A stretch of 64,000 nt of DNA, from the NCBI GenBank assembly GCA_017439305.1, contig JAFSJK010000010.1:95949-159948 (forward strand). Reading direction: 5' to 3'. The DNA comes from Bacteroidales bacterium (GTDB taxonomy: Bacteria; Bacteroidota; Bacteroidia; Bacteroidales; UBA932). Below the pieces are notes generated by a model, which saw nothing but the letters and a program-made list of their open reading frames with translations, did no database searches and was not told where the DNA came from. A program made the translations under genes and the position numbers. Of the stretch, positions 2,678 through 51,390 are shown piece after piece. Numbering within the stretch: position 1 is the stretch's first letter; each line of letters starts with the position of its first letter.

Positions 2678-3973
2678 ATGGAAATCAACGAACTGTATGC
2701 TCTTTTCCTGGCCTCCAAGGGGGTGAACACGGATACCCGCACCCTGGAACCGGGACAGATCTTCGTCGCCCTCAAAGGGGAAACTTTCGACGGAAACACC
2801 TATGCCCTGAAAGCGCTGGAGGGCGGCGCGGCGTATGCTGTCGTCAATGAATACGTGGAGGGCGATGATTCCCGCCTGATCAAGGTCCCAGACACCCTAC
2901 GCACCCTGAAGGAATTGGCCGCTTTCCATCGGCGTCAGCTGGGCATTCCTGTCATCGGCCTGACCGGTACCAACGGGAAGACGACCACGAAGGAGCTTAT
3001 CCGCGAAGTCCTTTCCACCCATTATCGCGTCGCTGCGACCAAGGGCAACCTGAACAACGATATCGGCGTGCCCCTGACGGTCCTGTCTATCGGTTCCGAG
3101 GCGGAAATCGCCGTCGTGGAAATGGGCGCCAGCCATCCCGATGACATATCGGCCCTGACCTGGGTAAGCCAGCCCGACTACGGACTCATTACCAACGTGG
3201 GCAAGGCCCATCTGCTGGGATTCGGCAGCTTTGAGGGGGTCAAGAAAGCCAAGGGACAGCTATATGACTGGCTGTCGGAGCATGACGGGCAGGCCTTTGT
3301 CAATGTGGACGACGAAAACCTGTATGGCATGGCCGTCTCCCGGCCGCTGTCCATCATCCCGTACGGGGTGGCCGGCGAGGACGCCGTCATCCTGCCCACC
3401 TCGGCCGACCAGCCTTACCTGCGGATGGAAATCGGCGGACAAGAGCTTGATACACACCTTGTCGGGGCTTACAATTCCGCCAACGTGATGGGCGCTCTCG
3501 CCGTCGGCCGCCAGTTCGGCATCTCCCTGGAAGAGGGAATGGCCGCCATCGCCGCCTATGTGCCCTCCAACAACCGTTCGCAGATGACCCGGACGGAGCG
3601 CAATGTCGTCATCGAGGATGCCTACAATGCCAATCCCTCGTCGATGGCCGCCGCCCTGGACAATTTCGCCGCCCTGGCGGATCCGTGCAAGATCGTCATG
3701 CTGGGCGATATGCGCGAGTTGGGGGAGGATTCCGTTCAGGAGCATATCGGCATCGTGAAGAAACTGGATACCTGCGGCTTGACCCATGCCTGCCTGGTAG
3801 GGGAGGAATTCCGGAAAGCACTGCAGGAAGCCGGAACGCCTGCCTATGTCAAGTGGTTCGCCACGTCCGACGACCTGGCCGCAGCGCTGGCCGAACGTCC
3901 CTTGACGGGTGCGACAGTCCTCGTCAAAGGCTCCAACAGCATGCGGATGGGAAAGGTCCTTCCTACGCTTTAG
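2678..3973 (+). CDS. murF: UDP-MurNAc-tripeptide--D-Ala-D-Ala ligase
   Basis: This cytoplasmic Mur ligase of 431 residues adds D-Ala-D-Ala to the peptidoglycan precursor. The ATP-binding loop is GLTGTNGKTTTKEL (about 101-114), followed by the Mur-ligase central domain (KGNLNNDIGVPLT, EMGASHPDDI) and a C-terminal domain with DAYNANPSSM. I chose the ATG at 2678 over the earlier in-frame start because it follows the dut stop by 4 nt and starts a typical N-terminus. The 3' end overlaps the convergent PAP2 gene by 11 nt. Confidence 0.94.
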   Translation: MEINELYALFLASKGVNTDTRTLEPGQIFVALKGETFDGNTYALKALEGGAAYAVVNEYVEGDDSRLIKVPDTLRTLKELAAFHRRQLGIPVIGLTGTNGKTTTKELIREVLSTHYRVAATKGNLNNDIGVPLTVLSIGSEAEIAVVEMGASHPDDISALTWVSQPDYGLITNVGKAHLLGFGSFEGVKKAKGQLYDWLSEHDGQAFVNVDDENLYGMAVSRPLSIIPYGVAGEDAVILPTSADQPYLRMEIGGQELDTHLVGAYNSANVMGALAVGRQFGISLEEGMAAIAAYVPSNNRSQMTRTERNVVIEDAYNANPSSMAAALDNFAALADPCKIVMLGDMRELGEDSVQEHIGIVKKLDTCGLTHACLVGEEFRKALQEAGTPAYVKWFATSDDLAAALAERPLTGATVLVKGSNSMRMGKVLPTL

Positions 3974-42072: not shown

Positions 42073-42103
42073 TTTGATTGTTTGTGGGAAATGCCTATCT
42101 TTG
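42073..42103 (+). promoter_or_regulatory. promoter of the recoded lipoprotein operon
   Basis: TTTG at 42073-42076 and TATCTTTG at 42096-42103 are separated by exactly 19 bp, the textbook Bacteroidetes -33/-7 spacing. Transcription would start near 42110, giving a leader of about 295 nt before the ATG at 42405. Confidence 0.8.
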
Positions 42104-42109
42104 TTCCTA

Positions 42110-42404
42110 AGGATAACCGGACTGTCCAAAGGTCCGGGAGCATGCGGAGGGGGTGACATTCGGGAGTAGCGCTTATCCACGTTCACGGCCCGGATTGTCA
42201 GAGAGGAGAGGCCGGGAAAGAATGGTGCAAGGACGGGGAATGGAAAGTACGCTGTATTACGCTGGATAGGGATATTCAGGCAAGTCAGTGCGGCTGTCGT
42301 CCGGAGATAGGCACATAAAGGCAGTTCTTTCCGAAGGGGCTGGTTTCCTAATCCCCATTTCCCATGTCTCCCAAGCCGGATAGTCCATAGATGACCTGGG
42401 ATAT
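42110..42404 (+). promoter_or_regulatory. long 5' leader of the recoded operon
   Basis: The leader is GC-richer than the genes that follow and can fold: CCGGAC/GTCCGG at about 42117-42136 and CCCGG/CCGGG at about 42191-42219. I do not recognise a riboswitch or known RNA family. It also contains the small frame described at 42142. Confidence 0.45.
42142..42318 (+). CDS. possible leader ORF with UGA as codon 5
   Basis: From the ATG at 42142 the frame reads MRRG, then TGA, then 53 further codons to TAA at 42316. If UGA is glycine this is a 58-residue cysteine-containing peptide (HGPDCQRGEAGKEWC, SQCGCRPEIGT). With UGA as stop it is a 4-residue peptide. No homologue is recognised and the frame may be chance, but its position in the leader would suit a sensor of UGA decoding. 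Confidence 0.25.
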
Positions 42405-44771
42405 ATGCACTGAGACAAACCCTTATTCTGAATCCGGCATATCTTCAAGTCCCTGACCGCTTCTCTCCTGGTGGCCTTCTTCCTTGTGTCCTGTGGTGGG
42501 AAAGAGCCTGTCGATCCAACTCCTACTCCCGGTCCTGGTCCCGATCCAAAACCGCCCGTCGAAACCAAGGATACCAAAGCCCCTACCATCACCGTCAAGA
42601 TAACCGAAAAGAATGTCATTGCCGGAGTGGTCGTGTCAGTGAAGGACAATCAGCTCTTCTTTGACCAAGACGTTGCCACCTCCTGGACTGATGACATTTC
42701 CAAGTCATGCAAGGTTGAATTATCCCTTCTCCCTTCCGGCGGACAATCCAAAACCATTAATTCCGGCGACAAACTGGAAGAGGCCGGAACATTACAATTG
42801 AAGGTTCTTGATGAGGCCGGGAATTCTTCATCCGCCGAAATCAAACTCACCTTATCCGATACCAAGGCTCCGGAAATTGAGGTTAAAATCTCCGAGAAGA
42901 ATGTTGTCGCCGGTGTCAAAGTCAATGTCGAAGGCGATCAACTCTTCTTTGATGACCAGGTAGCAGCTTCGTGGAAAGATGACTATTCTGAAAGCCTCAC
43001 AGTCAATGTCCAGTATTTCCCTGAAAACTCATCAACCGGCAAGTCCATCGAATCTGGAGAAACCCTCTTCGACGCCGGGAAACTTACCATCCAAGTGGCT
43101 GATGAGTTCCAGAACAAGGCTACTGCCGAGATAACCCTGACTGCAGTTGCTATCTATGGGCTCGAGATTCTCCAGGGTAAGACTCTTCAGGTGGACCAGG
43201 AAGTCAATCTCCTCGAAGGATTGACCATCACGGAAGGACTAATTCTCAAGAAGGTCGAGGTAGAAGAGAACGGAACGAGGGATGTGGTCACTGAGCCAAA
43301 GACTTATACCCCTGAATATCCGGGAACCATCAATATCATCCTCACCCTCTCAAAACGGGATGGAAGTACAATGGAAGTTAAAGCCGAGAATCTGGTAATC
43401 AATCCTCTGGGTTACGATAAACTGGCAGTCATCGACTTGAAACCCGTCGATATCCTCCCCATCATAGGACAGGTCGAATCAGGAGACAAGCAAGTCTATG
43501 ACCATATCGACCACCTCCGTCTGGCCGAAGCGACCCGAATGAGGGACATGATGTGGGAGTACGGAGCTGGGATTCATTCAACCGACGAATACCGTCAACT
43601 GATGGGGAGGCTCGTAGCCGGAATGGTGGATGAGTATCCTGGGGGATATGATGATTTCGAGGTCATCGGGCAGATCAATCCAAACTTGAAAGGGAATGAG
43701 CATTCCCACAGGGAGTGGAGCATCCTTCATACGCTGGTCAACCATGCGAATCTCAAAGTCGTATATACACATCTGGAACAATGGCAAGATAAACTGGATT
43801 CATTTATTCAGGATCATCCAACGTCCATCTCTATTTTCTGATGCTCACAATATGCGCAGGTCAGCAAAGATAAATTCCTGAAATGGACCGAGAACGATAT
43901 AGTTGTGGAGTTATGTAGATCGGGGAAACTCATTCTGTTCAAGTCTGGAGGAAATATCGAAACTGAGAACTGAATCCTAATCAACAAGACCTTCCACAGA
44001 GACATCGACGGAGACGAGCACGGTTTCTACTCCCTTCAGGCCAATGCCAACGGAAAGAATGATGCCTCTGCGGACAAAACACTGCTGGTCACCATCGGAA
44101 CGAATGCCGCTGGAGACATCGACCAGACCGATGAGATATATGCCAGCAGCGTGTTCCCCGTAGGGTTTCACGACCAGGCCCTATTCGCCTGACGTGCTTT
44201 CCCGTATCATAGGTTAAGTGATGGCAAAATCGGAGCAGAAGGGAATACAAACAACAGGAAATACGCCACATCCTACACGAATTACGTTAATACAGCCATG
44301 ATGTCCATCTGCTTCCAGATGTACGCTGAAGTCAAAGACGTCGATGAACTGCTTGAAATGGTCCGTTCAACCGCCCTGACCGACTACATCAGACTCGACG
44401 GAATGACTCAACCCCTCCAACTCATCAATCCGGCTGGCTTCTATAAAAAGTATCTAACTCCCTCCACAATTCCCTCTTCCATATCATTGGGTGAAACCAC
44501 GGAACTACAGAAAGGCTACTACAAAGGCGTTATCTTCAACATCCCTGGTGCCGAAGTCAAGATTAACGGCGAGTGGATTTCCTTTGACGCCAAGAATAAA
44601 GACCTCATCCTCGCTCAAAATCCTATGAACCTTGAATGGAGACTCAATGGTGCTTTCCTTAGGAAATATGGTTATACCTCTGGTCAGACTCTCCAAGGTC
44701 AAATCATTACAGTAGATGACCAGTGGAATGGGCTGAGGCTGGAGAAAGATATTACAATTCAAATCAACTAG
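42405..44771 (+). CDS. recoded lipoprotein A (UGA read as Gly), Ig-like and subtilase-like
   Basis: One frame of 788 codons runs from the ATG at 42405 to TAG, through TGAs at 42411, 42429, 43839, 43971 and 44190, with no in-frame TAA or TAG. The signal peptide ends LVAFFLVSCGG, an SPII lipobox followed by a Pro-rich linker. Two HYR-like Ig domains follow (DTKAPTITVKI; DTKAPEIEVKI), then a unique domain with VYDHIDHLRLAEATRMRDMM. A region faintly like a degenerate subtilase comes next (NEHSHREWS, FKSGGN, YATSYTNYV), then a C-terminal domain ending GLRLEKDITIQIN. Trp is encoded by TGG, so UGA is not Trp. TGAs at 43839 and 44190 face GGA and GGC in paralogues. It is the first gene of three, with 3-nt gaps. 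Confidence 0.9.
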
Positions 44772-44774
44772 GCC

Positions 44775-46820
44775 ATGCATAAATTCTTCCCCTCCCGACT
44801 TTTGGCCTGATTCCTGGTGCTCTCTGTCCTGCTTTCCTGTGGTGGAGACGAGCCGATAGATCCAACACCCGTCACTCCCGTTACCCCAGTTAATCCTCCC
44901 ACACCGGAGAAGGATACCACGGCTCCGACAATTACTGTGTCCAAGAGCACCATAAACGTCATTTCAGGCCCTTCATTGACAGTCTCAGGGAATGAACTGA
45001 AGATTGGTTCCGACCTGGTTGCATCCTGGAAAGACGACAAATCCACAGCCTGCACTGTCTCTACCACCTTAACGCCAATGGGAGGTACTGCAAAGACCAT
45101 CAATTCCGGAGACAAACTCTCCGAAGAAGGAAAGCTACAGGTGAAAGTATCCGATGAAGCCGGGAATTCTTCGACATCAGAGATAACTTTGACGGCCATA
45201 GCGGTATACGGACTAGAGATTCTACAAAGCAAGACTCTTCAGATAGACCAGGAAGTTAATCTCCTCGATGGAATTACGTTTGCAGATGGCCTGACACTCC
45301 AGAAAGTCGAAATCGAGCAGGATGGAACGAGGAGCGTAATTCCCGATGCTACCAAATATACTCCTGAGGTTCCTGGCTCCATCAATATTATCCTCACTCT
45401 TTCCAGAACAGACGAAAGCACAATAGAAGTTAAAGTTGAGAATATGACGGTCAATGGGATTGAATATCTCCCGGTATCCATTACCGATATCAAACCGGTC
45501 GATGTTTTCCCGCAAATAGCCCAGATAGAAGCGGGTGACCCAAACATCTACAGTTATGTCGAAGACCTGAGAGTGGCAGAAGCTTATGTGATTAGAGAGA
45601 TGATGTCTATGTATGGGGTCGGCAATTATAGTCCTGAAGAGTATCAGCAACTATTGTCGAGAATCAATATTGGCTTGATTAACGAATTACCGGATGACTA
45701 CGCAAATTATGAATGGATTTGACCCAGCACTGATAATGTGAGCATCTCCGATCATTCTAGATACACCTTCCAGAACCTGACCTCTTTAAAAGGAGAATAC
45801 ACTTGTATAAAGAATCTTAGCGACTTGGGAGAAGGTTGGGCTAAGAATCTTTACTACTTTGCCTCAATACACCCCGATGACATTTTTATATTCTCCAGTT
45901 CAACATCTCGTGAGTACTATACTCATAATCAATACAAACAATTTATATTCAATCAGAGCCTCATAGACTTATGTAATCTCCCGAATGTGTTAATTTACGT
46001 GGCATGATGAGATACAGGTACAGTCAATTGAGTGCTTTATAAAAAAGTGTATAACGGGCTCTACGAGTCGGATTGAGATGGTATGTATAATTCCTCTTCC
46101 ATGGCAAATTCGGATCAGAACAATTATCCGGACAGCAATATGAGGGTGGTAATATGAAGTAATGACAAATGAGATGTCGATATGACTAATTCTATGGGAA
46201 GCACGTTCCCTGTCGGGTTTGATGATGGTGTTATCGTATCAGGCCATCCGATACTGCCTTATAACTTGAATTGAAAACTTTTTGGTGAAGATTTACCAAG
46301 GAACTGATCGTATGTCACTTCACTTGTCACTCCAGCCACAGCCAGCGAAGTGCAGCTGATATTCGGTCTATACGCCGATGTGAAAGACGCCGATACATTA
46401 CTGGAGATGATTGAAAGTGAAACGGAGGCTGACTACATTTCGCTGAACGGTATAACTCAAGCTCAGCAAAAGTATAGCCCGGCGATCTTTGTCAAAAAAT
46501 ACTGCATGACAGTGGATATTCCTGGCAGTATGGCCCTGGATGAAACAGTTTCCTTGAACAAAGAATGGTACAAAGGCCTCATCTTCAACATCCCCGGTGC
46601 TGAAGTCAAGATTAACGGCGAATGGATTCCCTTTACCGCCGAGAATGCAAGCCGAATCAAAGCCACCAATCCAATGAATCTCGAGTGGAGGCTTAATGGT
46701 ACTCTTCTTAGGAAATATGGCTATACTTCCGGGCAGACTCTCCAAGGTCAGATAATAACAGTTGACGACCAGTGGAATGGACTGAGATTAGAGAAGAATA
46801 TTACAATCCAAATCAACTAG
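44775..46820 (+). CDS. recoded lipoprotein B (UGA read as Gly)
   Basis: This is 681 codons from the ATG at 44775 to TAG. In-frame TGAs lie at 44808, 45720, 46005, 46008, 46029, 46074, 46155, 46170, 46272 and 46305. The first TGA lies within the hydrophobic core of the signal peptide (MHKFFPSRLLA-TGA-FLVLSVLLSCGG), so without UGA decoding the protein cannot be made from this start. It has one Ig-like domain instead of two, then the shared EATRIRDMM-like domain (here EAYVIREMM), the subtilase-like region with TSLVTPATAS, and the conserved C-terminal domain. The double TGA at 46005-46010 faces GGA GGA in both sister genes. TGAs at 45720, 46074, 46155, 46170, 46272 and 46305 also face GGN codons. 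Confidence 0.92.
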
Positions 46821-46823
46821 TCC

Positions 46824-49199
46824 ATGCGTAACCCTTTCTCCCTCCCGACCAAAATACTCTCCTGACTTCTGGCGCTATCGTTCATCATAGCCTGCTGAGG
46901 AACTGAACCCGATGTCCCTTCACCCGGTCCAACGCCTCCCAATCCAACCCAAGACACGAAAGCTCCTGTGATCTCCATCAAGATTCAAGAGCAGAATGTC
47001 ATCGCCGGAGTCAAGGTCGACATCAAAACAGACCTGATTCTCTTCGACCAGACCGTTGCAGCCACTTGGAAGGATGATATCTCCAAGTCATGCAAGGTTG
47101 ACGTCGGGTTTATCGGCGAAGGAGGTGCTGTGAAGGCTGTCAAATCAGGAGACAGGTTAGAAGAGCCCGGGAAACTGCAAATCAAGGTCACCGATGAAGC
47201 CGGAAATGATTCATCGGCAGAAATCAAACTCACCCGGGTCGATTCCTGAGCACCTGAAATCTCCATTTTCATCGGCGAAAAGAATGTCGTTGCAGGCATC
47301 AAGTTCAAGGTCGATGGGAGCCAACTCTTCCTCGATGACCAGGTAGCAGCTTCCTGGAAAGATGACTATTCTGAAAGCCTCACGGTCGATATCCAACATA
47401 TCCCCGAAAACTCATCAACCGGCAAGGCCATCGAATCTGGAGAAACCCTCTTCGACGCCGGGAAACTTCAGATAGTCGTTCAAGATGATGCCAAGAACAA
47501 ATCGACCGCTGAAATCAAACTCACATCTGTTGCCATCACCGGTCTGGAATCGCTGATGGGAAAAGAACTCACGGTCGATGTGCCAGTTAATCTTCTTGAG
47601 GGTCTTACGATTGCAGAAGGATTGACACTTCAGAAGGTTGAAATTGAACAGGATGGACAAAGAAGTGAGATTGCCAATCCGAAAGCCTTCAGTCCACAAA
47701 TCCCTGGCACCATCGGCATTGTCCTGACATTGGCAAGAACAGACGGAAGCACTATCGAAGTCAAAGTCGACAACCTGACAGTCAAGGGAATCCAGTATCA
47801 AGCCATGAAGATAACCGACCTCAAGCCGGTGGAGATTCTGCCAATTATCGGACAGATTGAGGGCGGAGACAAAAACGCTTATGACCACATTGATCATCTG
47901 AGGGTGGCCGAAGCGACCAGAATTCGTGATATGATGTGGAAATATGGCACGGGGAAGCACTCCCCGGAACAGTATCAACAATTAATGATGAGATTGAATA
48001 CGGGGATGATTCAAGAATATCCTAAATGATACAGTAATTTTGAATTCATCGGTACTTGAGAATATGGCGATCTAGGAGATAATCATGCTCATATAGAATG
48101 GAGTATCCTAAACTCTTTGTTAAACCATGTGAATATGAAGTGCGTGTTAGTCACACTCAATGAAATGTGGTGGGATAAGGTAGAAGCTTTCATTAGAAAC
48201 AATCCTGATGCAATTACAATTTTGGGATGCTCTACTTCCGCAGATGATAATAAAGAAGATTTTATTAATTCACCCGAGAATGCCAAAGTTAAAGAATTAT
48301 GTAAATCAAGAAGACTCATTATCTTCAAATCTGGAGGAAATATTCGAACAAAAGACTGAGTTCTTCTCACTAAGACTTATCAAAAGGATGTAGATGGAGA
48401 TGAACACTGACGCTATCATTTGGCTTCGCTCGCAAACTGAAAAAATGACAGCGTTGTTGATATGTCATTACTCATATCTGTATGAACAAATGCTCAATGA
48501 GACGCGGACCAAACTGGTGAAACGACCGCTAGTAGCCGCTTCCCTGTGTGATTTCATAATAAAGTGTTGTTTGCTTGACGTGCTTTCCCTTACCACTCAT
48601 TAAGTAGTTGAACAATCGCAGCAGAAGGTAGTATAAATAATGGCAAATATGCAACATCATATGTCAATTATGTAAATGTTGCCATCATGGATATATGCTT
48701 CCAGATGTTTGCTGAAGTTAAAGATGTCGATGAATTATTAGAGATGGTTAGATCGACTTGCCTTACTGATTGTATTAGGTTAGATCTTAATTGAGATGGA
48801 GATACAAACGATACTGTTGATAATCAACCAGAGACTCAACCTCTTCAATTAATGAATCCCGCTTGATTCTTTAAAGAATACACTATGAAGGCGGATGTCC
48901 CATCCTCCATCTCTATAAACGAAGTAGTTAACTTGGGCATCGGTTATTACAAAGGCCTCATCTTCAACATCCCAGGTTCCGAAGTCCTGGTCAATGGTGA
49001 GTGGATTGCCTTTACTGCCGAGAATGCAAGTCGAATCAAAGCGACTAATCCTATGAATCTCGAATGGAGACTAAACGGAGTTCTCCTCAGGAAATATGGC
49101 TACAGCCCGGGTCAAACCATCCAAGGTCAAATCATTACTGTTGATGACCAATGGAATGGCTTAAGGTTAGAGAAGGATTTCACCATTCAGGTCAGATAG
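46824..49199 (+). CDS. recoded lipoprotein C (UGA read as Gly), most TGA-rich
   Basis: This is 791 codons from the ATG at 46824 to TAG, in the same frame as A and B. Fifteen in-frame TGAs lie at 46863, 46896, 47247, 48027, 48057, 48357, 48408, 48438, 48483, 48498, 48549, 48576, 48609, 48792 and 48864. The TGA at 46896 directly follows the lipobox Cys (AC-TGA-GTEP), where A and B have CGGKEP and CGGDEP. The TGA at 48792 completes a calcium-loop-like DLN-Gly-DGDTND. Ten of its TGAs face GGN codons in A or B. Domains follow gene A: two Ig-like, the EATRIRDMM domain, subtilase-like region (DNHAHIEWS, FKSGGN, YATSYVNYV) and C-terminal domain. UGA density increases along the operon. Confidence 0.92.
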
Positions 49200-49229: not shown

Positions 49230-50228
49230 TTATTTCTGCTTGTCCAGGAGATGCTGCCTTTTCCTGGCGCTCATGGGCTGGGCCTCTTTGGCGGCTTTGG
49301 CGGCAGCTCTGGCGTTGCTCTCGGTCCTTCTCTTCTTCGCCTCCGCCTGGGTGGCACGCCGACGGGCATCCCTGGCCTTGGCAATTTCGGCCCGTTCTTC
49401 TTCCTTCTTGGCCCGGAGTGCTTCCTTGGCGGCGTCTCTTTCGGCAATTTCAGCTTCCCTCTGTGCCTTTTCTTCCTCCAGGCGGGCTTGTATTCTTGCC
49501 TGATAGTCCGGATTGGAGAGTAGCGCTTTCCGACCAGGTGTAGCCAGGAGATTCAGGGCCATCTTGGAAACCTTCGTCCGGGCATATCTCCAGCTCTTGC
49601 TGCAGGCTTCACAGAGGACAGAGCCATCCGAGAGTACAGCTTTGGCCTTATGTTTTCCATCCTCGAGAACTTCCATTTCCAGAGATAGACGCCTACCATC
49701 AATCTGTCGGGTTATCTCATCGGCCTGGGAAATGATGTCCTTGTTCCTTTTCCGATGGGTGAACAGGTGCTTTACGTCATCGGCAAGGATGTACTTGGAG
49801 ATGAACCAGCCTCTGAGGTCTTCGGAAAGGGTCGATACATATCCGAAAATGGCATAGACGAAGATGTGTTTATGGCTGGAGATATCAAAGTTTTCTCCCG
49901 CTCTCACGAATTGGCCCAGTTTCCAGTCGTCATACATCCTTTCCAGCCGTTCTTTACCGAAAAGATTGCCGAGGATATGTTGCAGTCGAGTTCCATCGCC
50001 GGAGAAATACTGACAGAGAACATCTGCCACCTGTCCTTTGAAAACGAACATTCCGGCGAAGATATATCGGCTGTTTCCCTTTCCTTCCTTCTCGTAAAAA
50101 GAGCTGTGAGTGAGAACTGACCTGAGCTGCGACCGAGAGAATACCTTCCGAAGGTCGGAATACAGCGGATCTTCCCAGGCTTTGTAATTATCCCGGGGAC
50201 GAGGCTGCTGTATCCGTTTTTCATCCAT
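49230..50228 (-). CDS. RNase III-like protein with dsRNA-binding domain, catalytic residues lost
   Basis: A 332-residue protein. Residues about 20-150 follow the RNase III pattern: LRSVLTHSSF (like LTHRSY), NSRYIFAGMFVF (where active enzymes have NERLEFLGDAVL), LGQFVRAG, and IFVYAIFGYVS at the second acidic motif. The catalytic Glu and Asp positions are occupied by Ile, Met, His and Tyr, so cleavage activity is unlikely. Residues about 180-230 match a dsRBD (MEVLEDGKHKAKAVLSDGSV, then CSKSWRYARTKVSKMALNLL). The tail (about 235-332) is a charged Arg/Lys/Glu/Ala helix. It starts 4 nt after the UCA tRNA gene and is probably co-transcribed with it. A frame from 50285 would run through the tRNA, so I chose the ATG at 50228. 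An RNA-binding role is inferred. Confidence 0.78.
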   Translation of the reverse strand: MDEKRIQQPRPRDNYKAWEDPLYSDLRKVFSRSQLRSVLTHSSFYEKEGKGNSRYIFAGMFVFKGQVADVLCQYFSGDGTRLQHILGNLFGKERLERMYDDWKLGQFVRAGENFDISSHKHIFVYAIFGYVSTLSEDLRGWFISKYILADDVKHLFTHRKRNKDIISQADEITRQIDGRRLSLEMEVLEDGKHKAKAVLSDGSVLCEACSKSWRYARTKVSKMALNLLATPGRKALLSNPDYQARIQARLEEEKAQREAEIAERDAAKEALRAKKEEERAEIAKARDARRRATQAEAKKRRTESNARAAAKAAKEAQPMSARKRQHLLDKQK

Positions 50229-50232
50229 CTCG

Positions 50233-50324
50233 AGCGGGTGACCGGAATCGAACCGGCTCTTGCGTACTGGATATACGCCGGCCAAGATCTGAAGTCTTGT
50301 GTGCTGCCATTACACTACACCCGC
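50233..50324 (-). tRNA. tRNA-Gly-like UGA decoder, anticodon UCA, long variable arm
   Basis: A 92-nt cloverleaf: acceptor GCGGGTG/CACCCGC (7 bp), TA, D stem GTGT/GCAC with loop AATGGCA, anticodon stem CAAGA/TCTTG around CTTCAGA (anticodon TCA at 50292-50290), T stem GCCGG/CCGGT around TTCGATT, discriminator T73. G1-C72, C2-G71 and U73 are bacterial glycine identity features, and the D arm resembles tRNA-Gly. The variable region is about 25 nt with a GCGTA/TACGC hairpin, unlike normal tRNA-Gly. It is not tRNA-Sec: the acceptor/T lengths are 7/5 and the D stem is 4 bp. CCA is not encoded. It fits the Gly-for-UGA pattern in the facing operon. Confidence 0.92.
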
Positions 50325-50332
50325 AATGGTTA

Positions 50333-50340
50333 CAAAGATA
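50333..50340 (-). promoter_or_regulatory. promoter -7 box of the UCA tRNA
   Basis: On the minus strand TATCTTTG ends 8 nt before the tRNA 5' nucleotide (50324), the expected distance for initiation at or just before the mature 5' end. It shows that the tRNA is set up for expression by Bacteroidales RNA polymerase. Confidence 0.75.
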
Positions 50341-50411
50341 ATGAAAATACGACGAAGTGTTCCCCCATGTACTCTCCTTTGGCTCATCTCACTCCGAACT
50401 TCGCCTTCAAT

Positions 50412-50582
50412 ATGACCACTTACTATTGCCATACCCTTGAAGAAGCCCTGAGAAGAGCCAAGAAAGCCGGGAAAAGACCAGGTAGTTTCTATGGTGGAAT
50501 TGTCTTGAAGTCAGGTAAGACCGGGTTTGCAATCTATCGGGAAGGGAAAGTAATTGAACAGTATACGGTTATTGGGAGATAA
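50412..50582 (+). CDS. MTTYYCH small protein, copy 1
   Basis: A 56-residue protein, start MTTYYCHTLEEALRRAKKAG, then a Gly-rich YGGIVLKSGK segment and GFAIYREGKVIEQY. It is one of four copies in 5 kb (others at 51220, 53799, 55233). Predicted order is a helix followed by a beta hairpin. There is no signal peptide and no recognised family. It is transcribed divergently from the UCA tRNA. It ends in TAA. Confidence 0.7.
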   Translation: MTTYYCHTLEEALRRAKKAGKRPGSFYGGIVLKSGKTGFAIYREGKVIEQYTVIGR

Positions 50583-51219: not shown

Positions 51220-51390
51220 ATGACCACTTACTACTGCCATACCCTCGAAGAAGCTTTGAAGAGAGCCAAGAAAGCCGGGAAGAAACCTGGCTGTTTCTAT
51301 GGTGGAATTGTCTTGAAGTCAGGTAAGACCGGGTTCGCTATCTATCGTGACGGTAAGGTGGTTGAACGGTATAGCGTGATTGGAAGATAA
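51220..51390 (+). CDS. MTTYYCH small protein, copy 2
   Basis: A 56-residue copy with MTTYYCHTLEEALKRAKKAG and GFAIYRDGKVVERYSVIGR. The differences from copy 1 are mostly conservative, indicating selection on the protein. A TACCTTTA element about 16 nt upstream could be a -7 box for a near-leaderless start. It ends in TAA. Confidence 0.7.
   Translation: MTTYYCHTLEEALKRAKKAGKKPGCFYGGIVLKSGKTGFAIYRDGKVVERYSVIGR

Follow-up and report, generated by a model that had tools for sequence, protein, structure and literature searches.

A chromosomal cassette in standard-code Bacteroidales whose tRNA very probably decodes UGA as glycine in adjoining genes

A 64,000-nucleotide stretch of the Bacteroidales bacterium assembly GCA_017439305.1 (lineage UBA932; contig JAFSJK010000010.1, positions 95,949 to 159,948, forward strand), called the window below, holds three adjacent surface lipoprotein genes with in-frame TGA codons, together with a leader RNA, a class II tRNA with anticodon UCA and a gene for an RNase III-like protein. 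These parts were read as a chromosomal self-decoding cassette in standard-code Bacteroidales. The decoding is well supported: on sequence evidence, the cassette tRNA very probably has UGA read as glycine locally. A translational lock near the start of the first gene and an origin in Absconditabacteria would complete the reading. An earlier note, made from the window letters, had proposed glycine at UGA in the three genes, which is now supported by homologues from other genomes, by the adjoining tRNA(UCA), by recurrence and by the absence of selA over the cut-off. The tRNA(UCA), the RNase III-like gene, the leader RNA, the start-proximal UGA and the apparent reading of CGA as tryptophan in relatives go beyond that note. 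The elements in the window were as follows.

42096 to 42103, plus strand: TATCTTTG, a match to TAnnTTTG upstream of the leader RNA.
42158 to 42316, plus strand: core of the structured leader RNA (model R1), recognised by covariation and lying shortly before the first recoded gene.
42405 to 44771, plus strand: recoded surface lipoprotein gene 1 (ATG 42405, TAG 44771, 5 in-frame TGA, start AUG-CAC-UGA).
42411 to 42413, plus strand: start-proximal UGA at codon 3, the proposed gate; a UGA at codon 3-5 is conserved.
44775 to 46820, plus strand: recoded surface lipoprotein gene 2 (TAG 46820, 10 in-frame TGA, the first at codon 12).
46824 to 49199, plus strand: recoded surface lipoprotein gene 3 (TAG 49199, 15 in-frame TGA, the first at codon 14).
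49230 to 50228, minus strand: RNase III-like protein with double-stranded RNA-binding domain and basic tail (Pfam, homologue alignment).
50232 to 50324, minus strand: class II tRNA, anticodon UCA, with glycine identity elements (ARAGORN, label tRNA-SeC; Rfam).
50333 to 50340, minus strand: TATCTTTG, a match to TAnnTTTG, 9-16 nucleotides upstream of the tRNA(UCA).

A recount of the frames bore out the 30 in-frame TGA codons, the lack of TAA and TAG, and the closing TAG of each gene; about 58 TAA plus TAG are expected in the three frames from positional base composition. The earlier claim that 20 TGAs in 16 columns face a GGN codon stood as a pattern and not as a count, which was 19 TGAs in 15 columns in a three-paralogue alignment. 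This alignment begins at 42429 and thus covers 29 of the 30 TGAs, and it contained the all-TGA column described earlier (43971, 48357 and 46029). Homologue columns were built from other genomes only, with TGA, CGA and CGG masked, and gave a mean glycine fraction of 0.44 at window TGAs. In this comparison, where a non-glycine majority would contradict the proposal, glycine ranked first, alone or jointly, at 20 of the 29 window TGAs and at 135 of the 2217 remaining window codons (binomial p 3e-18, with paralogues that are not independent).

The family of these lipoproteins (family 1) was followed across the cassette loci described below. A profile search gave 35 hits and 33 open reading frames (ORFs) above the score limit, and removal of three duplicates left 30, several of them partial. 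Codon profiles were computed as the mean residues of the other sequences in each column, excluding columns with fewer than four others. Glycine made up 0.44 at TGA (n = 401; next serine, 0.11) and 0.48 at GGA (n = 238; serine 0.11). Judged by these profiles, TGA behaves like GGA across the 30 homologous ORFs. The ORFs were delimited by TAA or TAG, and the 22 complete recoded C-termini closed with TAA (12) or TAG (10) and never with TGA. Aligned ends lay at most four residues before the stop, except in four tailed copies. These copies (two genes of L079, L082 and L099) bear TGA-free C-terminal tails of 44-45 residues, e.g. ...KPTKPGVYIENGQKVIIR, which are not found in the window genes, so that cargo ends may follow host lineage.

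Two homologues came from genomes in which no cassette was seen: a 152-residue piece in G033 has no internal TGA and a TGA immediately past its aligned end, and a homologue in G023 has no TGA and one in-frame TAG. At locus L094, with TGA translated as glycine only and no other residue as control, Pfam matches were obtained for GNAT (E 9e-13, 9 TGA), PHP (1e-13, 12 TGA), DUF3800 (6e-14, 3 TGA) and UDG (3e-8, 7 TGA).

The window tRNA(UCA) has a 7/5 acceptor/T stem and a long variable arm (ARAGORN drawings, consensus fold), and 3 nucleotides separate its end from the start codon of the RNase III-like gene. G1:C72, C2:G71, G3:C70 and U73 were present in 28 of 28 UCA tRNAs, the window copy included, and the tRNAs are nearly invariant across many genomes. 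At 19 of 28 loci (shuffles predict 1.5) the 70 nucleotides before the tRNA contain the motif TAnnTTTG, which we take to be the Bacteroidales -7 promoter motif. The same four acceptor features form the glycine tRNA(UCA) set in the available text of Shulgina and Eddy 2021 (PMC8629427).

ARAGORN labels this tRNA tRNA-SeC, as it would be if the UCA tRNA were tRNA-Sec and the genes encoded multi-selenocysteine proteins. That is exceedingly improbable: the 7/5 fold, U73 and the glycine acceptor pairs speak against it, UGA columns hold mainly glycine with cysteine outside the five commonest residues, and selA was over the cut-off in none of 10 cassette genomes (one weak 25.9-bit match in the own genome; selB was not searched for). 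Standard-code gene calling would split the recoded genes.

Most copies of the Gly(UCA) and Trp(UCG/CCG) cassette tRNAs share in alignment a common D arm and a variable-arm loop containing UCCA, a likeness that suggests common ancestry or a shared binding partner. At L067/L071 (genome G361), positions 414-506 between tRNA(UCG) and tRNA(UCA) hold a further sequence that by eye resembles a class II tRNA; its stems are irregular, its anticodon may be CAG, and ARAGORN did not call it. An ARAGORN tRNA-Ala(cgc) in L036/L075 lies by eye inside a phosphosugar mutase-like ORF and was taken as spurious.

Around the cluster the code is the standard one, as the earlier note had it. In the window's own genome prfB was over the cut-off, and of 28 non-overlapping ORFs chosen from outside the cluster, 9 have TGA as their stop; UGA is therefore an ordinary stop elsewhere in the genome, and genome-wide code 25, in which UGA is no stop, does not describe this host. 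Dedicated synthetases were sought and rejected. For trpS one match was found in seven of eight genomes and none in G419; glyS was over the cut-off in six of eight, other matches being fragments or weak, and no second full glycyl-tRNA synthetase (GlyRS) was seen.

The use of TGA stops by flanking ORFs also bears on the proposal that the genes are decaying, or that contigs of a UGA=Gly organism were misbinned into Bacteroidales. Most records are metagenome-assembled genomes (MAGs), several contigs end inside recoded genes, and Absconditabacteria contigs in other assemblies gave apparent stop reassignments according to the sections available of PMC8629427. Misbinning is opposed by those flanking TGA stops, found in the same loci, and by a cassette copy in Prevotella sp. 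tf2-5; decay is opposed by the lack of TAA and TAG where about 58 are expected and by the low ratio of nonsynonymous to synonymous substitution (dN/dS) of the closest pair (0.15). We consider either form of artefact very improbable.

Selection was estimated on the central domain of the cargo. The tandem copies at L078 gave the dN/dS of 0.15 at a dS of 0.40, and among the 12 lowest-dS central pairs of 131 computable, nine were at 0.15-0.42. At L083 (contig NZ_FOWK01000011.1) a long run of N lies inside a recoded cargo gene, and contigs of several MAGs break off within cargo genes, which may mean that the cargo is difficult to assemble.

The cassette recurs. Within the own genome no further cluster was found besides that of the window. 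Near-full-length DNA relatives of the tRNA were found in 3 other genomes of 150 (G047, G001, G038); weaker short matches occurred in many more, and of four inspected two were ordinary Gly/Gln tRNAs and two had no called tRNA. Ten of 300 genomes in the genus, the own genome among them, gave lipoprotein matches: G000, G001, G038, G189, G275 and G335 had cassette parts plus TGA-bearing copies, and no cassette was seen in G023, G025, G033 and G316 (the G316 match is weak). The RNase III-like protein matched in 7 of 298 relatives, own included (in G173 a 28-residue end only). Of 393 genomes from the order, three gave a match at E <= 1e-20: the own genome and two from other families, G361 and G659, both of which likewise carry tRNAs UCA and UCG.

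A scan of genome_contigs (84,980 species by its description) with four aligned RNase III-like copies yielded 30 loci. Class II tRNA(UCA) was present in 27, class II tRNA(UCG) in 22 and class II tRNA(CCG) in 4; the three loci without tRNA(UCA) have at most 227 nucleotides of sequence upstream of the marker match. Locus titles name Prevotella, Prevotellaceae, Bacteroidaceae, Muribaculaceae, Bacteroidales, Bacteroidia and uncultured bacterium, many of them ruminant-named, and one locus, Prevotella sp. tf2-5, is from a record not titled MAG. Ten neighbours at six loci had nine different Pfam contents (ATP synthase subunit, methylase, SecDF, ArgRS, kinase, CoA ligase, IS110, starch synthase, oxidoreductase) and one had no match; because the hosts differ, varied neighbours alone are no proof of cassette mobility. 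No phage family appeared by name among these ten neighbours (prophage genes were not otherwise searched for).

A phage or plasmid element was rejected as the carrier, no marker-protein relative being found in phage or plasmid records or in viral_contigs. A loose D-arm pattern matched 10 viral contigs, none with an ARAGORN-called class II UCA tRNA. No report of such a cassette was found in the open-access literature (subscription papers and preprints lie outside this coverage). Adjoining the cassette in the window, 50400-50582 and 51220-51390 hold two short-ORF copies that are similar by eye (MTTYYCHTLEEAL...YGGIVLKSGKTGFAIYR).

The window RNase III-like protein matched Ribonucleas_3_3 (E 2.5e-6, below the Pfam gathering score) and a double-stranded RNA-binding domain (E 7e-4). 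At E <= 0.01, all 21 homologues matched Ribonucleas_3_3 and 15 of them matched DSRM_2. Positions 54-68 are presumably where the RNase III signature motif with its catalytic acidic residues would lie; in 20 of the 21 proteins aligned, acidic residues are missing from this stretch, and the single Glu of the L096 protein is by eye off the aligned catalytic site. The protein may be a pseudo-enzyme whose catalytic signature has apparently been lost, and it probably binds the unusual tRNAs or the leader RNA.

The leader core lies about 90 nucleotides upstream of the first recoded gene. RNAalifold gave a structure of 37 pairs, 17 of them changed on both sides, with 97.5% of cells paired; none of 500 shuffles equalled it on any of five measures, and sliding by 1-3 columns collapsed the structure. 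The window match scored 161.8 bits (the window is in the training set). Matches were found in 22 of 40 sources, L096, L073, L084, L085, L091 and L099 being outside the training set. The leader was present in 3 of 101 relatives (G000, G001, G038), each cassette-bearing. All 10 of the cassette genomes chosen for a further scan had it too, largely in copies already counted. No Rfam match rose above chance (best E-value 8). As judged from covariation, the leader is a new structured RNA.

A TAnnTTTG match occurred within 110 nucleotides upstream of the leader core in 20 of 22 loci (shuffles predict 1.0). Start codons were picked by eye from open candidates listed by script; in 22 of 22 loci an AUG lay 86-106 nucleotides past the core and was followed by UGA at codon 3 (16), 4 (4) or 5 (2). 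A further copy (L142) has UGA at codon 3, bringing the total to 23 of 23 first genes, far beyond chance at the TGA density of N-terminal halves (91 of 6844 codons). The cargo behind the early UGA is family 1, a second secreted family with RSADAQQ-like repeats (family 2; L085, L089, L094) or neither profile (L083, L084, L096), so that the early UGA seems to be part of the leader module. Window genes 2 and 3 have no early UGA. In the genome of L087 (G425), contigs C24 and C68 carry two leader copies, each followed by family-1 cargo with a codon-3 UGA.

In family-1 proteins a lipobox and Ig-like repeats (by eye and weak Pfam matches) are joined by a central domain some 310 residues long and by a C-terminal part. 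No match was obtained to PDB sequences, PHROG or PADLOC, and Pfam/NCBIfam matches were weak only, some to Ig-like or repeat families; no known family fits. From its motifs, we would guess that the central domain is subtilase-like. Across columns 600-900 of the alignment, the share of TGA in TGA+GGN is 0.50-0.59 and the GC content at third codon positions (GC3) is 0.24-0.30; elsewhere the values are 0-0.3 and 0.37-0.67. Central-domain GC3 is 0.17-0.36 in 21 of 26 copies, and 0.35-0.82 in the rest of the genes. The centre exceeds 0.36 in window genes 1 and 2, L058, L060 and L090. Window gene 1, with a central GC3 of 0.57 and 3 TGA, looks rewritten. L094 contains about 3.5 kb at a GC content of 0.24-0.29 with several unrelated TGA-containing genes in both orientations. 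The AT-rich centre and this stretch suggest import from an AT-rich donor with the same code, and we lean towards the view that the cargo domains came from such a donor, most plausibly Absconditabacteria. An association of Absconditabacteria with Bacteroidetes has moderate support in cyanobacterial mats, as far as the available text of PMC8406219 goes. Past cassette and leader in L071/L096, positions 1893-2642 and 2782-3000 hold two AT-rich genes with a common signal-peptide-like stretch (TITGTALL / TIITG-TGA-ALL); one has its TGA at a glycine-like position, and the pair may be a third cargo family.

The relatives with tRNA(UCG) also appear, from their alignments, to read CGA as tryptophan. In these genomes CGA lay at columns with Trp on top in 15 of 36 cases and at Arg-top columns in 1 of 36; of 255 other Arg codons in these genes, 1 was at a Trp column and 108 were at Arg columns (Fisher 1.7e-14 for CGA vs other Arg codons at Trp columns, a significance inflated by related sequences). 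In the remaining loci, which include L076 with tRNA content not known, CGA was at Trp in 1 of 13 and at Arg in 3 of 13. G73 and A/G1:U72 were present in all 22 UCG and 4 CCG class II tRNAs. These features are part of a provisional Trp tRNA rule in the accessible portion of PMC8629427, whose A20 clause falls outside this comparison. For CGG as tryptophan, the evidence is the four class II tRNA(CCG). In the window no UCG tRNA is present, and none of the five CGA codons is at a Trp column.

The following mechanism is proposed. The class II tRNA(UCA), with its own promoter-like element, would be charged with glycine by the host's ordinary GlyRS, to judge by its identity elements, and the charged tRNA would decode UGA as glycine in competition with RF2. 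Its dedicated targets would be the adjoining surface-protein genes, where UGA stands for about half of the central-domain glycines family-wide and stops are UAA or UAG. Most relatives (22 of 30 loci) have a further tRNA (UCG, G73, A/G1:U72), which, putatively charged by the host TrpRS, would read CGA as tryptophan. The operon order is leader RNA, AUG, then UGA at codon 3-5; with a UGA this early, a ribosome lacking the cassette tRNA should stop after two to four residues. We think it rather probable that the early UGA serves as a translational lock on the surface-protein genes.

The lock, and not UGA as glycine, is challenged by a passive account in which genes imported from a UGA=Gly donor (Absconditabacteria or Gracilibacteria) with their suppressor tRNAs have been slowly rewritten; the code would have no regulatory role, and the early UGA would be part of an imported signal peptide. 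This account is possible but falls short of probable. It fits the AT-rich central domain set against the rest of the genes, the rewritten look of window gene 1, the low-GC stretch of L094 with its unrelated TGA-containing genes, and the combination of UGA as glycine with CGA/CGG as tryptophan, which is the Absconditabacteria code in the part of PMC8629427 available. Against it stand the early UGA, which all 23 first genes keep although their cargo differs and the N-terminal half is TGA-poor, the conserved leader RNA and promoter-like motif, and tRNAs that are nearly invariant over many genomes.

Several observations tell against the cassette reading as a whole or in part. Nine of the 29 window TGAs are at columns without glycine as top residue (Ser in three, Ala in two, Glu, Glu/Thr, Asn/Asp and Val), TGA 46074 being the clearest misfit (13 Glu), and a weak lipoprotein fragment in G025, where no cassette was seen, has one TGA and one TAA. 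No leader was found in 18 of 40 sources. Most of these stretches are truncated, are duplicates or lack a cassette, but at L090 a family-1 gene with 3 TGA stands without a leader, and at L095 the tRNAs occur with no recoded gene seen in 14.6 kb; G047 has the tRNA and no leader match, its contig ending inside the RNase III-like gene. L080 has one CGA at a Trp column and no UCG tRNA found, and none of four CGG codons tested in UCG loci was at a Trp or Arg column. Three of the 12 lowest-dS pairs, all with L077, have a dN/dS of 0.94-1.10, and most dS values exceed 1. Avoidance of CGA by the hosts was expected and not found: its share of Arg codons in host ORFs was 0.081 in UCG-positive loci vs 0.068 in six UCG-negative ones, and TGA stops closed 30 of 134 host ORFs in UCG-positive and 19 of 60 in UCG-negative loci. 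With CGA kept and TGA used as a stop, suppression must be weak, regulated or confined. Either the tRNAs would be scarce or regulated, or the leader and the protein would confine them; such confinement, if true, would be a new principle.

Taken to its full extent, the cassette reading would describe a portable second code for its own operon only, with one stop and one (possibly two) sense codons reassigned, tRNAs confined by the leader and the pseudo-RNase III, a start-proximal lock, and surface proteins, partly derived from Absconditabacteria, made only in cells with matching tRNAs. This complete version is put forward tentatively. The cassette would offer a natural, testable intermediate for the origin or spread of UGA as glycine and CGA as tryptophan, and it could mark a route by which genes travel between Absconditabacteria and Bacteroidales. 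It also adds a new structured RNA, and its tRNAs may interest those who engineer codes.

Changes of the code are known that cover a whole genome or that serve phages as a strategy, and standard-code bacteria are known to carry stray suppressor tRNAs. NCBI genetic code 25 is said to go back to Campbell 2013. Allo-tRNAs were reportedly described by Mukai 2017 as chromosomal tRNAs with a long variable arm, some proposed to be nonsense or missense suppressors. They have 8/4 or 9/3 acceptor branches and other identities, whereas the cassette tRNAs are 7/5, have Gly or Trp identity elements and come with candidate target genes. Allo-tRNAs and selC*-type opal suppressors are reviewed in PMC7609411, to go by the text available.

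In the accessible text of PMC8629427, the Absconditabacteria code has UGA as glycine and CGA and CGG as tryptophan. The cassette resembles it, and code 25, in the apparent reading of UGA as glycine by a tRNA(UCA) with the same acceptor identity set and, in relatives, of CGA as tryptophan by a tRNA(UCG) with G73 and A/G1:U72. In Absconditabacteria the code is genome-wide; here it would be confined to a cassette in a host with prfB and TGA stops. The class II form with long variable arm is stated for the cassette tRNAs only and not for those of Absconditabacteria. Suppressor tRNAs are found in 0.3% of standard-code bacterial genomes and are explained by nonsense mutations in the portion of PMC13092985 available. 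The cassette shares with those cases a stop-decoding tRNA in a standard-code genome; unlike them, as far as described there, its tRNA is glycine-type, class II and recurring, with UGA-rich targets and a leader RNA, and its relatives add a sense-codon tRNA. Alternatively coded phages use suppressor tRNAs (TAG as Gln, TGA as Trp) with a cited role in holding back late proteins, according to the available part of PMC10746230. There too a cis-carried suppressor tRNA lets a standard-code host read recoded genes; unlike those phages, the cassette has no phage or plasmid relatives of its marker, concerns glycine and the sense codon CGA, and includes a leader RNA and an RNase III-like partner. Set beside these systems, a standard-code bacterium appears here to hold two codes at once, one of them tied to a cassette and, in relatives, extending to a sense codon.

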